Below, one piece after another: positions 8,531 through 62,364 of a DNA stretch of 64,000 bases. Position 1 is the first letter of the stretch; each line of letters begins with the position of its first letter. The notes beneath the pieces were generated by a model. The model had not been told where the DNA came from. It worked only from the letters and a program-made list of their open reading frames with translations, and did not search any database. The DNA comes from Caldilineaceae bacterium. Its GTDB lineage: Bacteria > Chloroflexota > Anaerolineae > Caldilineales > Caldilineaceae. The stretch lies in assembly GCA_022827195.1 (NCBI GenBank), contig JAJDTL010000030.1, positions 1-64,000 on the forward strand, read 5' to 3'. Position numbers and translations under genes: made by a program.

Positions 8531-8564
8531 CGACTTGACCGGACTTCATCGGACCTGACCGGAC
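8531..8564. repeat. Period-10 array, consensus GACTTGACCG
   Basis: Three successive decamers plus four bases (CGACTTGACC, GGACTTCATC, GGACCTGACC, GGAC). The reverse complement of the same decamer forms the array at 55871-55913. Confidence 0.75.
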
Positions 8565-8997
8565 GCAACGCGGCCCTTCGTGTGAATTCGTGTCCTTCGT
8601 GGATCGCAACGCTATAACGAGCGCCGTCTGTCAGGACACTAGGCTACTCTGCCACGCCAATGCGAACAAGGGACTTAACCCTACAACCGCCATTCGCGCC
8701 CGCGGCCCTGCCGCAACGCGGCCCTTCGTGTGAATTCGTGTCCTTCGTGGATCGCAACGCTATAACGAGCGCCGTCTGTCAGGACACTTGGCTACTCTGC
8801 CATGCCAATGCGAACAAGGGACTTAACCCTACAACCGCCATTCGCGCCCGCGGCCCTTCGTGTGAATTCGTGTCATTCGTGGATCGCAAAGCTATAGCAA
8901 GCGCCGTCTGTCAGGACACTTGGCTACTCTGCCACGCCAATGCGAACAAGGGACTTAACCCTACAACCGCCATTCGCGCCCGCGGCCCTGCCGCAAC
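8565..8997. repeat. Three-copy tandem repeat of about 148 bp
   Basis: The common block starting CGGCCCTTCGTGTGAATTCG occurs at 8571, 8719 and 8851 (spacings 148 and 132). It carries near-identical text through 'CTATAACGAGCGCCGTCTGT' (one base changed in copy 3) to 'CCATTCGCGCCCGCGGCCC'. Copy 2 is 16 bp shorter at its end, consistent with slippage between the GCGGCCC boxes. Few substitutions separate the copies, so the expansion looks recent. Confidence 0.9.
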
Positions 8998-9143: not shown

Positions 9144-9210
9144 TACGTCTCAGATCGTCTCAGATCGTCTCAAATCGTCTCAGATCGTCTCAGATCGTCT
9201 GAGATCGTCC
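9144..9210. repeat. Period-10 array, consensus CAGATCGTCT
   Basis: At least six decamers in exact register (9151, 9161, 9171, 9181, 9191, 9201), with one A and a few terminal changes. A three-copy inverted version with similar flanks (GCG..TACGTCTC) lies at 56061-56090. Confidence 0.85.
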
Positions 9211-9602
9211 GAGCGCACCGCCGCCCACAGCCCGCAATTCCCGCAGAATTGCCGAAATGTTCGCCCGATTCTGCCTGCCAAACCGGCAAAAAGCGCGTCA
9301 CTTCGCGCCAAAACGCCTGTGAGAAAAAAGCCTCTCCTCGACATTTGGGAGTCGTTGACACTCCCAAATAGTGGTCAACAAATCTTGGCATCTACAGCGT
9401 CTCTTCGTTCTGTGCTAACTTCAGTTCGACTGTTTCTTTGCGCGCAGACCTCCGCGCGACCCGTAGCCGTCACCTGTGTCCATCACAAGAATCAGATGAA
9501 CTGTATTTCAGGTAAATGTCAACGAGCACTAGAAACTCAAAACTCAAGACTCAAAACCAACAAGACACCCCCTCCCGAAAGAAAAAAATACCGCGACTTT
9601 TA

Positions 9603-9636
9603 GGGACATTTGGGGACATTTGGGGACATATGTCCC
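9603..9636. repeat. Period-10 array ending in a 14-bp palindrome
   Basis: GGGACATTTG occurs twice, then GGGACATATGTCCC, a perfect 14-bp palindrome at 9623-9636. It could be a protein-binding site or another short tandem array; no flanking gene explains it. Confidence 0.7.
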
Positions 9637-56060: not shown

Positions 56061-56090
56061 TGAGACGATCTGAGACGATCTGAGACGTAC
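56061..56090. repeat. Period-10 array, TGAGACGATC repeats
   Basis: Three decamers (TGAGACGATC twice, TGAGACGTAC). Read on the minus strand this is the same array and left flank as 9144-9210. Confidence 0.8.
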
Positions 56091-59409: not shown

Positions 59410-60174
59410 CTAGCCCATCTGTGCCATTCTATTGAAAGTGCTCGACGCTGTCAAGACCATCCGTCCGCCGGTCGCCATTTTGCCGAACAGCTCGCTCGCC
59501 ATGGCCGCGAACTCGCGCGGCATTCCCCGGGCGTGCTCCAACATACGGGTGAACATCTCGTTGGGCAGGAGGCCGACGTCCTCGGCGAACATGCAGAAGA
59601 CGAGGCGGTTGACGAAGTGGGCGACTTCCTGGGGGGCGTGGCCGCGGTCGCGCAGGGCCTGGGCAAGAGCGGCGAATGAGGAGGCGGCGCGCTCGGTCAG
59701 CGACTGGCGGCTTTCGCCGGGCCGCAGCCGTTCGGGGTCGGACATGGCCCACTTGAGCTTGTCGCGAACCGCGCCGTCGGCCAGATCGTCGAGCGTGAAC
59801 TCGTGAACGACGCTCACACTGTTGGTCCAGTTGGTGTGGATGCGGAATCGCACCATGTCGGAGACGACGAGGAGGGGCGGGTTCTCGAGGGCGAGGGCGT
59901 ACTGGCGCAGCTGGTTGAAGGCGGCGTCGAGGTCCTTATGCGGCCCTTTGTATTCCCAGGCGAAGCAGTGGCGCTTCCATACGTCAGCCCAACCGCTGCC
60001 GCCGCTGTCCTTGCGCGCACCGCGCTCGAAGCAGTAGCGCTGGCCGGTGGGGTCGTCCTCGGCCGGCGTCGGCTCGTCGAGCAGGCGGCAGAGGTCGATG
60101 AAATGCTCCTGGGCGGCGGAGCGCTCTTTGAGCTCGGTGGCGCGCCACTTGGCGATGAAGTCGTGCTGGTTCAT
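59410..60174 (-). pseudogene. Truncated MmeI-like type IIG restriction-methylation gene
   Basis: The 254-residue product matches only the N-terminal nuclease and early helical part of large MmeI/YeeA-like enzymes, which are usually over 900 residues. The nuclease triad D64...E74-Y-K76 (GWADVWKRHCFAWEYKG) has the same spacing as in MmeI. The reading continues through VNRLVFCMFAEDVGLLP to MATGGRM, where the family should go on into the methyltransferase domain. Here it runs into unrelated residues and stops. No methyltransferase segment follows, so the gene is a remnant. Confidence 0.75.
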
Positions 60175-60222: not shown

Positions 60223-60555
60223 TCAACGGTGCGCAGATCGATCTTCCACGTGAGTCGATACAAATTCCCCAAAGCCCTCAACGACTTTCGCCAAGTCGCG
60301 TATCAGTCTTCTTGTTTCGGCCAGTCCCTGCGTGTTTTGCCGCTGCTGCTCGGCCATGCCTTCAATTAGCCGTCTGGTTTCGGCCAGTCCCTGCGTGTTC
60401 TGCCGCTGCTGCTCGGCAAGGCCTTCAATCAGCCGTCCTGTTTCGGCCAGTCCCTGCGTATTCTGCTGCTGCTGCTCGGCAGTGCGTTCCAGCAGCGCTT
60501 CAATTCGGTCTATTCGTCCTGTTCCGTTGGAACGGTCATCCGGTTGTGTCGCCAT
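60223..60555 (-). CDS. Small coiled-coil protein with three 23-residue repeats
   Basis: A 110-residue protein. Residues of about 25-90 contain three near-identical copies of AEQQRQNTQGLAETRRLIEG (23-residue period), consistent with a helical coiled-coil rod. The start has TAGGAG 10 nt upstream. It lies just upstream of the truncated MmeI-like gene. The DNA repeats (69-bp period) are almost identical, suggesting recent expansion. Function unknown; it could be an accessory of the lost restriction system. Confidence 0.65.
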   Translation of the reverse strand: MATQPDDRSNGTGRIDRIEALLERTAEQQQQNTQGLAETGRLIEGLAEQQRQNTQGLAETRRLIEGMAEQQRQNTQGLAETRRLIRDLAKVVEGFGEFVSTHVEDRSAHR

Positions 60556-60731
60556 TGTCGGGGGTCTCCTATCCTTCTAGCTTTACACGAGATAGTACAT
60601 ACGTGCCATTCTAGCAACTGTCGCACGCCTCGGTCAAGTCATCGTTGTGGGGTAGTTTCAGCCCAAATAATGGGGCACAGGTTCCCATTCCTCGGGTACC
60701 AACCGAGTCTATCCCACTCCTTGCTGCCCCC

Positions 60732-61033
60732 GGCCACCGACGACTGACAACAGGCCACTGGCAACAGGTCGCTGCCTTTGGACGGTCGGGCCGTTCCGGC
60801 CCTCCCTTGTGCGGGGGGACACCCCCCGCAACGCCCCCCTGTAGCGATGCCACCGTGCCTGCGCGTCCCCAGCTTGTGCGCCAGCGACCGGGAGATGAAT
60901 GCCACTATGTGTGCGCGGTTCCAGCTCGTCGCCGGTTCCGCCCACCGAGTTCCAACAGTACCTGACCACCGGCAACTGGCAACTGGCAACTGACCACTGG
61001 CCACCGGCCACTGACCACCGGGCACCGACCACT
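60732..61033. repeat. Composite repeat unit with heptamer tracts
   Basis: A heptamer tract (60732-60773, 6 copies like GGCCACT/GGCAACA) is followed by the GGCCCTCCC...ACGCCCCCCTGTAG module with a perfect-arm hairpin at 60811-60829. A CCACCGTGCC...CCAGCT segment and a GTGCGCGGTTCC box come next, then a second tract (60964-61033, 10 copies of G[GA]C[AC]AC[CT]). The order is the same as in units 1-482, but the heptamer sequence differs. Confidence 0.85.
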
Positions 61034-61554
61034 GCAGTCCCGCAAATCCGCTCCCGCCGTCCCCTGCAAGAGACTCCGAAACGTGCTATACTGCAAGGTT
61101 GAACCCGAACCCAACCCGGGGCTGTATCCGCACGCGCTGCATGCGCACAACTGCCTGTATACCTTTCACGGGCCGCCGACCATGTCGACCTGCTTTGAAC
61201 TGAACGTCCGAATCCTGCCCCCAGCGCACATCGCCCCGGGCGCAGCCGCCGCCAACCAGAAATGCGCAACCCTGCCGTCCGCCGCGCCGCCCACCCGCAG
61301 CAGTGGGAATCGCGCCATGCCGCCCATGCCTGCGCTGCCGCCACCCATCTCGGTATCCTGTCACGAAACACGTGAAACTGTCGCCGAATTGCGCGCTTTC
61401 TGCACCAAAACGACATTTTTTGCACACTTTCTGTCCAAAACCGACCGCGTACTGACCGCGACCGCATCCTGCTACGAGCGTCCATGCCAATATCCTGTCA
61501 CGAGTAGCGAAGAAAAACCTTTAAAACAGGCCTAAAGTGGCCAAAACAGCGCAT

Positions 61555-61587
61555 TCGATACCCTATCGATACCCTGTCGATACCCGA
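61555..61587. repeat. Period-11 array TCGATACCCTR
   Basis: Three consecutive 11-mers: TCGATACCCTA, TCGATACCCTG, TCGATACCCGA. Confidence 0.7.
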
Positions 61588-61707
61588 TTTCCGAAGAATT
61601 CCCTGCCGGTTTGCGTCACACCCGGACGCATTTGGGCCAATATCGGACAGATTCGGCCCAATTCTTGCGCACGTGCGCGGGGCTACCGACAAGGAGACCG
61701 ACGCCAC

Positions 61708-61743
61708 CTTTGACTTCGACCTTGACTTCGACCCTGATTTCGG
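61708..61743. repeat. Period-12 array CYTTGACTTCGA
   Basis: Three consecutive 12-mers: CTTTGACTTCGA, CCTTGACTTCGA, CCCTGATTTCGG. Confidence 0.65.
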
Positions 61744-62204
61744 TACCCGCAGGCGAGGAGGCCCGCGACGGGGCCCTCTACTCGCCCAATAAAGCCGGAC
61801 GCCGCCATCCTCGCCACCGTCGAATCCGTGGCCAACCCCCCGTTCGGCAGCGGAGGAATCAGGTAGACGTGACCTGGTCCCATGATGAAGTTCGGGCGCA
61901 GCTCGCCCATCGCGCCCGGCTGCCCAGCCAACAACGGCGCGAAAACCCTGCCTGACATCCCTTTCCCCAGGTTTGGGATACACCCTGGTGCGGTCGTTTT
62001 AGCCCACTCCTTGTGTGGGAATCGTCTGGTGGGAACTCATGTCGGCGGTGGCAGCGATCATGAACCGGCTGTGGCCGAGGGCAGGAACAAGGCCTGCCCC
62101 TACTGCGACCGCAGCACCGGCTGATCGGGGTACGGCGTGCCTGGCCGCCCGTTGCGCAGGGCTCCAACTGATCCTACAACTGACTGCTGGAGAGGTGTCA
62201 GGGG

Positions 62205-62293
62205 GGCGTTGCGGGGGGAGTCCCCCCGCACAAGGGAGGGCCGCAGGCCCGACCGTCAAACGGCCGTGGTCGGTTGCCAGTGGCCGGTGGCTG
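62205..62293. repeat. Inverted partial composite repeat
   Basis: Read on the minus strand this gives a heptamer tract (62293-62266, 4 copies) and then the GGCCCTCCC...GCAACGCCCCCCTG module. The hairpin at 62211-62229 has perfect 8-bp arms (GCGGGGGG-AGT-CCCCCCGC). Confidence 0.8.
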
Positions 62294-62364
62294 GGAACAG
62301 CGGGGAACGGTGGGTCGGTCGATACAAGGCCTGCCTCTATGCAGGTTTGCGTTTAACCTGTTAC

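Follow-up and report, generated by a model that had tools for sequence, protein, structure and literature searches.

A hairpin core common to two putative MITE families, and its heptanucleotide tracts, in a genus of Caldilineaceae

The repeats analysed here are very probably best explained as two MITE families, X and Y, with one common internal cassette, a 62-nt core of two hairpins. As MITEs with a passenger microsatellite they belong to a known kind, and what sets them apart is that both families, with their unrelated ends, have in common a structured, strongly conserved core, which appears to be exchanged between them. MITEs are usually regarded as what is left of insertion sequences, with an inner part that can decay freely. 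In X and Y, by contrast, no part is better conserved than the interior; two families with different transposases have it in common, and it seems to follow the genome of the host. Like other MITEs, X and Y have terminal inverted repeats, an 8-bp duplication, apparently no transposase, and cognate autonomous elements in the genus, and X has an empty site in a relative. Unlike known MITEs, they have unrelated ends and share one structured internal cassette that seemingly evolves in concert. No description of such a shared cassette was found in the top-ranked matches of the open-licence literature, and one review makes no mention of IS66, Chloroflexota, tandem repeat, hairpin, chimera or heptamer (PMC10969869).

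The core in the window and across the genus

The window is the stretch of 64,000 nt at the start of contig C54 (positions 1–64000) of genome G000, a 5.2-Mb Caldilineaceae MAG (Chloroflexota). The sequence-only reading had placed a conserved block with hairpin arms at four places in the window; the block is present at all four, and each holds the 62-nt core. Two of the cores belong to a tandem array on the forward strand at the left end, with a period of 171–178 bp. Window position 1 is the contig end, where a further left-hand array copy is cut off, leaving at 1–120 a remnant core (1–11), an A-type tail and the start of an AATCACG tract (100–127). The array continues with the core of tandem copy 1 (121–182), an A-type tail of CCACCGTG modules (183–270), an AATCACG-type heptamer tract (271–305 or 271–308), the core of tandem copy 2 (299–360), a second A-type tail (361–443), and an AATCACG-type tract that closes the array (444–478). 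The partial unit earlier proposed at 350–482 is the tail and tract of the core at 299–360. Tandem arrays of this kind (170–230 bp) would arise by unequal recombination. Integron-like cassettes were considered for the arrays and judged unlikely on motif grounds, as the core is without the canonical boxes of such cassettes (RYYYAAC/GTTRRRY). An origin of the repeats as a tandem-array or assembly artefact is scarcely conceivable: many copies do lie at contig ends, the window start included, but two genomes that each consist of a single contig, G011 and G015, hold the same elements, which are also found at single sites flanked by target duplications.

The third core lies on the forward strand in a Y-family composite element of about 1.33 kb (60652–61985), which is A-tailed and has degraded inverted ends, the left one placed by eye. 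Within it, a GRCMACY-type heptamer tract (60739–60774) is followed by the core (60778–60841; 88.8 bits with the covariance model R1), an A-type tail of class y5/a3 (60842–60961), a second GRCMACY-type tract ending in ACTGCAGT (60962–61034), and a 3' part of about 950 bp (61035–61985) that is found in at least 12 places in G000 and ends in GGGTGTATCCCAAACC read inward. Downstream of the second tract, A-tailed elements carry a conserved CCGAAACGTGCTATACTGCAAGG (window 61060–61100; also L031, L035, L038, L046 and L056), which by eye looks promoter-like (TATACT). The fourth core (62199–62260; 90.7 bits with R1) is on the reverse strand, between a Y-type 3' tail of class y3 with a GTAGGGGCAGGC..GCCTGCCC hairpin (62005–62198, the outer end placed by eye) and a heptamer tract (about 62260–62294), beyond which no 5' element end was recognised. 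Y-type 3' tails (window approximately 62080–62106) contain GTAG and then a GGGGCAGGC..GCCTGCCC hairpin that is REP-like by eye. The hairpin arms are, as first read, perfect in the cores at 60.8 and 62.2 kb (stem 2 in both) and near-perfect at the left end, where each copy has one G-T pair and the first has an additional A-C mismatch, both in stem 2 of that first copy. The ends of the window's own copies are degraded, and no target duplication was seen at them.

No sign of a coding function was seen in the 1.33-kb element, with no Pfam match in the four ORFs searched out of its five of at least 120 aa; nor was a known RNA family recognised, as Rfam gave no match at gathering score within the window. 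Just 5' of the element lies a 63-bp tandem repeat (60302–60481) that, by eye, would encode a repeated glutamine-rich segment. Farther upstream, a reverse-strand ORF of 254 aa (59410–60174) matches an MmeI-type restriction enzyme in just two domains, the N-terminal one and the helicase spacer, and is apparently a remnant or the beginning of a longer gene.

The consensus of the core reads TTGGACGGTCGGGCC-loop-GGCCCTCCCTTGTGCGGGGGGA-loop-CCCCCCGCAACGCCCCCCT. Among 164 distinct copies, the columns of its 3' two thirds are at least 95% conserved, except four positions at loop 2, and its loops vary more than its stems. Diverged cores have GGGCG/CGCCC or GGCCG/CGGCC as stem 1, and in stem 2 a C-G pair replaces G-C at the top. 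Close copies, the arms of which hardly vary, were uninformative in the covariation test; diverged copies were informative. In their alignment, 97.2% of the cells are paired, 13 cells are double-changed (shuffled mean 1.7), and the covariation score is 0.086 compared with 0.029 when shuffled, with 0 of 500 shuffles reaching the observed value on either measure. Slid registers are lower on both; a slide of –3 yields four double-changed pairs versus three in the real register, but only 8 cells versus 13 and a lower score. Because kinship among sequences inflates such shuffles, this is good, but not final, evidence that diverged cores keep both hairpins through compensatory changes. Covariation cannot tell RNA from single-stranded DNA; as RNA, the core folds only modestly better than its shuffles (z from –0.75 to –2.6). 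An intrinsic terminator was rejected because, on inspection, the sequence has no T-run 3' of the hairpins on either strand.

Searches with R1, a covariance model of 62 positions, found 53 cores in G000 and at least one core in 16 of the 17 genomes of the genus. Copy numbers are 0 in G004, 3 in G007, 9 in both G002 and G016, 36–71 in six genomes including G000, and at least 150 in seven; high copy numbers are lower bounds, as the scans scored at most 150 candidates per genome in the genus and at most 117 in a second scan. In a one-gene tree, the low-copy genomes G002, G007 and G016 group together inside the genus, and the placement of G004 is unsupported. With related genomes ranging from no copy to at least 150, the genus offers a natural series. 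Outside it, the core is absent from 29 genomes of 16 other genera of the family Caldilineaceae (R1, stricter filters) and was not found by sequence search in 24 genomes from other families of the class. The core pattern occurs in at least 115 stretches of named genome records, and all 80 among the matches listed are from Caldilineaceae.

Families X and Y and their ends

X elements in genome G012 extend from GTAACTACTCAGCC to GGCTTAGTAGTTAC over approximately 308 bp, with a shorter class of about 287 bp, and have unrelated flanks. A target duplication of 8 bp (at most one mismatch) borders 22 of 35 elements, compared with 0.4% of mismatched pairings, and other lengths are near background; the duplication recurs in 20 of 28 elements of a sample chosen by flank. 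IS66-family transposases are encoded in 9 of the 17 genomes of the genus. Both ends of 13 IS66 loci are of the GTAACTACTAAGCC type, nine of them with exact 8-bp duplications.

Empty sites in related genomes, for which the sequence-only reading had proposed to look, were found. For example, at L302 (G005) an X-type element, GTAACTACTAAGCC...GGCTTAGTAGTTGC, stands between two copies of CCCTGTAC, whereas L317 (G006) has one similar target, lacks 429 bp, and is 93–95% identical to L302 on both sides. A first search gave 1290 candidate rows; among the 40 matches listed, nearly all were element-to-element, and L116/L066 was truly orthologous. A stricter search with 435 copies as queries, redundant loci among them, produced 590 flank pairs; in 84 of these the query had one core and the subject lacked any, and in 30 the query had two cores and the subject again lacked any. 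Junctions were inspected in 16 pairs, 14 of them with a close pair; L302/L317 is clean with a duplication, and the others are less sharp. Judged by sequence, X thus has the ends, the 8-bp duplication and the empty site of an IS66-derived MITE. Beside X elements at L106, L129 and L113, another element, which we take to be IS982-type, begins at or near the X end.

Y elements start with GGGTGCAGTCCAAAAnTGGGG and end with its complement. They measure approximately 390 bp in many G012 copies and also occur in longer A-tailed forms, such as that at 60652–61985. When both ends have at most three mismatches and lie 340–430 bp apart, 8 of 18 copies have an 8-bp duplication (control, 1/306); with crude ends, the duplication is seen in 12 of 101 (control, 4/10100). 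Matches to ISKra4-family transposases (NF033572) occur in 15 of the 17 genomes, in four of them above the cut-off. One ISKra4 element above the cut-off, L452, has GGGTGCAGTCCAAATTTGGGG ends, matches the beginning of Y at 20 of 21 letters, and carries a 7-of-8 duplication; its relatives L453, L455 and L480 have GGGTGCATCC ends and exact duplications. Most pairs obtained by pairing Y-like ends in sampled loci were chance-like, and an ORF at L198 resembled ISKra4. A Y presence/absence pair (L211 versus L385) differs by 354 bp, and its junction is not sharp. These features mark Y as a family with ISKra4-type ends, in which roughly half of the copies whose ends are well preserved have an 8-bp duplication. 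At eight places in G000 (contigs C22, C24, C33, C43, C46 and C52), the same 24-residue end of an ISKra4-type transposase is found, mostly at contig ends, and an ISKra4-type insertion sequence seems to break this assembly.

Both families look like non-autonomous derivatives of elements resident in the genus, and the IS66 and ISKra4 transposases would move X and Y, respectively, in trans. REPINs, which depend on RAYT transposases, are hairpin-forming intergenic repeats in many copies (PMC3116915). The elements described here are likewise multi-copy intergenic hairpins, but their ends match IS66 and ISKra4.

Conservation, exchange and possible role of the core

Conservation of the core was assessed in G012 elements chosen by their 3' flank rather than by the core, of which 40 of 143 and 40 of 164 candidates were scored and the 30 X and 30 Y with the best flank matches examined. 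The core is in place in 30 of 30 X and 30 of 30 Y elements. The 28 of these X elements used for distances differ pairwise by 0.010 on average in the core, a figure that falls to 0.0017 for its last two thirds. For the 5' part the mean is 0.116; for the 3' part it is 0.074, a value lowered by the selection on the 3' flank. The lowest non-overlapping block of core length elsewhere in X reaches 0.055.

In other comparisons, removal of contexts already seen reduced the copy sets from 294 to 233 and from 444 to 302, with 300 copies kept for core distances; a separate sample used 14 of 34 X and 5 of 43 Y elements. The core distance is 0.044 between families within a genome and 0.133 between genomes within a family, in a comparison where many copies had been fetched by the exact core pattern, loci of unassigned genome were left out, and 1961 of the 1984 same-genome X/Y pairs came from G012. 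In other genomes, the same-genome X–Y distance is 0.116 in G005 (20 pairs), 0.129 in G011 (2 pairs), and 0.081 in G009 (1 pair). These values are at, or not far below, those between genomes (0.133–0.142) and do not show homogenisation, a result that rests largely on G012. Core sequence thus appears to track genome more than family, mostly as seen in this one genome.

The loop and stem forms also vary by genome. GTTCC and its variants in loop 1 belong to G000 and occur elsewhere once, in bin G014; TGC is the commonest form in G012; TATTC occurs in G001, G003, G005, G006 and G014; and TTC is found in most genomes. GCAAGC-type stems are present in G005, G009, G010, G015 and G016. In flank-chosen G012 elements, the TGC/TTC polymorphism of the loop is common to X (22/8) and Y (13/17). 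Core distances in the same elements are greater for X–Y pairs (0.059) than for Y–Y (0.040) or X–X (0.021) pairs, which indicates that exchange is incomplete. Seven of the 302 copies are chimeras joined at the core (three x5-y3, three y5-x3 and one x5-a3; e.g., L103, L120 and L113). At the orthologous site L116/L066, where the genes on either side match, two tandem cores in G012 correspond to a single one in G000. We take these patterns to reflect recombination or conversion acting at the core; the process is incomplete, and G012 shows it most clearly. Such recombination or gene conversion would pass cores, together with the attached halves and their tracts, between X and Y.

Two other accounts of the conserved core deserve consideration. 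Purifying selection might act on the core alone, with no exchange between copies, if the hairpin worked as an RNA or bound a protein and its optimum differed among species. The compensatory changes in both stems, the retention of the core in all 60 flank-chosen elements, and the greater variability of the loops would all be expected. However, the forms of loop 1, which selection should leave free to vary, are genome-typical, and the chimeras and the shared TGC/TTC polymorphism suggest exchange; we regard selection alone as a possible but less favoured explanation. Alternatively, the core itself could be mobile or templated: a cassette that hitchhikes in unrelated MITEs by inserting into a slot or overwriting it, and not one homogenised through ordinary recombination. 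An unrelated pair of families with the same core, the sharp conservation edges at the core (0.055 versus 0.010), and 17 autonomous elements whose placed ends enclose no core would fit this account. These elements are the 13 IS66 loci and four distinct ISKra4 loci, in which a profile search found no core between the ends; L273, flagged by a regular expression but not by the profile search, was counted as having none. Against a mobile core, no empty slot was seen among the 60 flank-chosen elements, no duplication was noticed in passing at the core's own ends, and the chimeras also swap the halves beside the core, as homologous recombination would. It is an improbable alternative, albeit one that would add a new level of mobile module if the core did move on its own. 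The account of two MITE families with a common cassette and exchange at the core is preferred.

Usable gene calls on both sides, based on a GC3 guess rather than on annotation, were available for 197 of 300 copies. Of these copies, 83 lie between convergent genes, 18 between divergent genes, and 43 and 53 in the two tandem arrangements; for comparison, 177 coreless gaps, drawn from another mix of genomes, divide into 29 convergent, 49 divergent and 99 tandem (Fisher test, convergent versus divergent, 7e-10). That neither tandem arrangement is preferred speaks against a strand-specific role. The bias in gene context needs no more than avoidance of promoters; a two-way insulator fits too. The least certain part of this account is why the core is retained: its folded form may have a function, and our tentative guess, less likely than not, is that of an insulator or terminator that works in either orientation and so lets insertions be tolerated. 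If the core is an insulator or a binding site, it would illustrate how elements that lack autonomy come to be tolerated and build up to hundreds of copies. More speculatively, the 62-nt cassette might be a passenger shared by MITEs from unrelated transposase families, passing from one family to another at the hairpin and strongly constrained. It would then be a structural module, selfish or useful, on a level beneath the MITE, akin to a common 'chassis part' of mini-transposons.

Heptanucleotide tracts

A tract of at least three heptamers adjoins the core in 140 of 300 copies, compared with 6 of 291 stretches 200 bp farther out; two of the 302 copies, which have short upstream sequence, were left out of the count. 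The coupling of hairpin and heptamers noted in the sequence-only reading is thus no coincidence, and the modular order is borne out. The proposed fixed junction also holds, as the tract, where present, usually ends by eye in a GCAGTT or GCCGTT(CC) link before the core. No tract of three units accompanies the other 160 cores. In G000, periodicity at lag 7 is found in 21 of 41 copies; far controls show it once in 41, and shuffles never (0/41). By eye and uncounted, the heptamer type seems to go with the module.

Heptamers are not confined to the core. Eighteen period-7 runs were found in 160 kb of G000, and 16 of them lie away from the one core-bearing element listed there, which makes heptamers a genome-wide class. 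The same 160 kb has no runs of period 8 or 9 and one or two of periods 10–12; shorter periods give more runs but are more easily met by chance. After removal of duplicates and sub-periods, 114 distinct tracts of at least four units remained. Their heptamer types are not arbitrary: ACTG, in some rotation on either strand, occurs in 54 of these (5% expected), and ACT occurs in 80 (19% expected). Of the ACTG tracts, 24 of 54 end in CTGCAG and four start with it (control, 0/54). ACTG tracts thus tend to finish at CTGCAG, as in ACTGCAGT, as if bounded or seeded by it.

The heptamer data give a direct measure of change in 7-nt units. Variation among NNNACTG units is 0.132, 0.054, 0.140, 0.047, 0.004, 0.066 and 0.121 by phase, and this dependence on phase means that the variation is not uniform drift. 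Simple point-mutation drift, the explanation against which the sequence-only reading had weighed its own, therefore does not describe the tracts: unit variation is phase-dependent and lengths move in sevens. Neighbouring heptamers resemble each other no more closely than distant ones do (0.88 versus 0.80 differences), a result not predicted by simple stepwise slippage.

Changes in length are best seen between contig C144 of G014 and contig C10 of G000, which match over approximately 100 kb, with main blocks 91–99% identical. C144 is probably misbinned or recently acquired, because the sulfatase gene of G014 is only 80% identical to that of G000. Another G014 contig close to G000, C88 (L084), is, like C144 (L375–L383), probably misbinned or recently transferred. 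In the C144/C10 alignment, all eight indels in tracts are multiples of 7, five of them at tracts without a core, compared with 6 of 81 elsewhere; the longer of the two sequences served to recognise tracts, a choice that biases the count towards multiples of 7, and the 6 of 81 include some in shorter heptamer runs. Substitutions affect 26 of 432 tract columns versus 3552 of 96714 elsewhere. The two copies of one element present on both contigs, L032/L068, agree fully in core and tail, and their 5' tracts differ by 35 bp, or five units. Slippage by whole units is probably the simplest account of tract change, and tract length would change by slipped-strand replication.

The earlier proposal that tracts are generated or exchanged by a process stands in part: units change as wholes and modules are recombined at the core, as in the chimeras, but the hairpin does not appear to make or swap heptamers. 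A hairpin that drives the generation or exchange of the adjoining heptamers is highly improbable. It could explain the tracts beside 140 of 300 cores, the presence, by eye, of unlike tract types at one position in related 5' halves (L089 versus L099), and the CTGCAG ends of 24 of 54 ACTG tracts. It is at odds with the 16 of 18 period-7 runs located away from the listed core-bearing element, the five of eight whole-unit indels at coreless tracts, the 160 cores without a tract of three units, and the L032/L068 pair, whose tracts differ beside an identical core and tail. With whole-unit slippage as the preferred account, the heptamers are the ordinary part of these elements and the hairpin core is the odd part.

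STRR are known heptameric repeats, and the tracts resemble STRR-type repeats in their 7-nt period and unit-wise change in length. Hairpins within heptamer tracts also have a parallel in Nostoc, where Elhai et al. (2008) reportedly described SDR repeats of 21–27 nt that form hairpins, show compensatory changes, and often lie in heptamer tracts or minitransposons. The core described here differs from the SDR definition, being 62 nt long with two hairpins, placed at the tract edge within MITEs, and found in another phylum (Caldilineaceae). Published heptamers include TAACTGA repeats in Beggiatoaceae, Cyanobacteria and Bacteroidetes (PMC4679880) and GGGNATC repeats in Xanthomonas/Nostoc (PMC4692102). 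The former source relates that heptanucleotides formed the most abundant class in most genomes of an earlier survey and had been suggested to favour polymerase slippage; it makes no mention of Chloroflexota (PMC4679880). These repeats are also 7-nt intergenic direct repeats, and TAACTGA contains ACTG too, possibly by coincidence; the units described here form a looser family (ACCACTG, GCCACTG, GCAACTG, AATCACG and others). A tandem repeat inside a MITE is likewise known from BrickBuilt of Porphyromonas gingivalis, a single element with 23-nt units (PMC4596501), whereas the elements described here combine 7-nt units of a genome-wide class with a separate hairpin core. Other repeats in the window include 148/132-bp tandem repeats and short decamer arrays (CGTCTCAGAT, TGAGACGATC) at 8564–8989, 9146–9209, 9595–9629 and 56061–56087.
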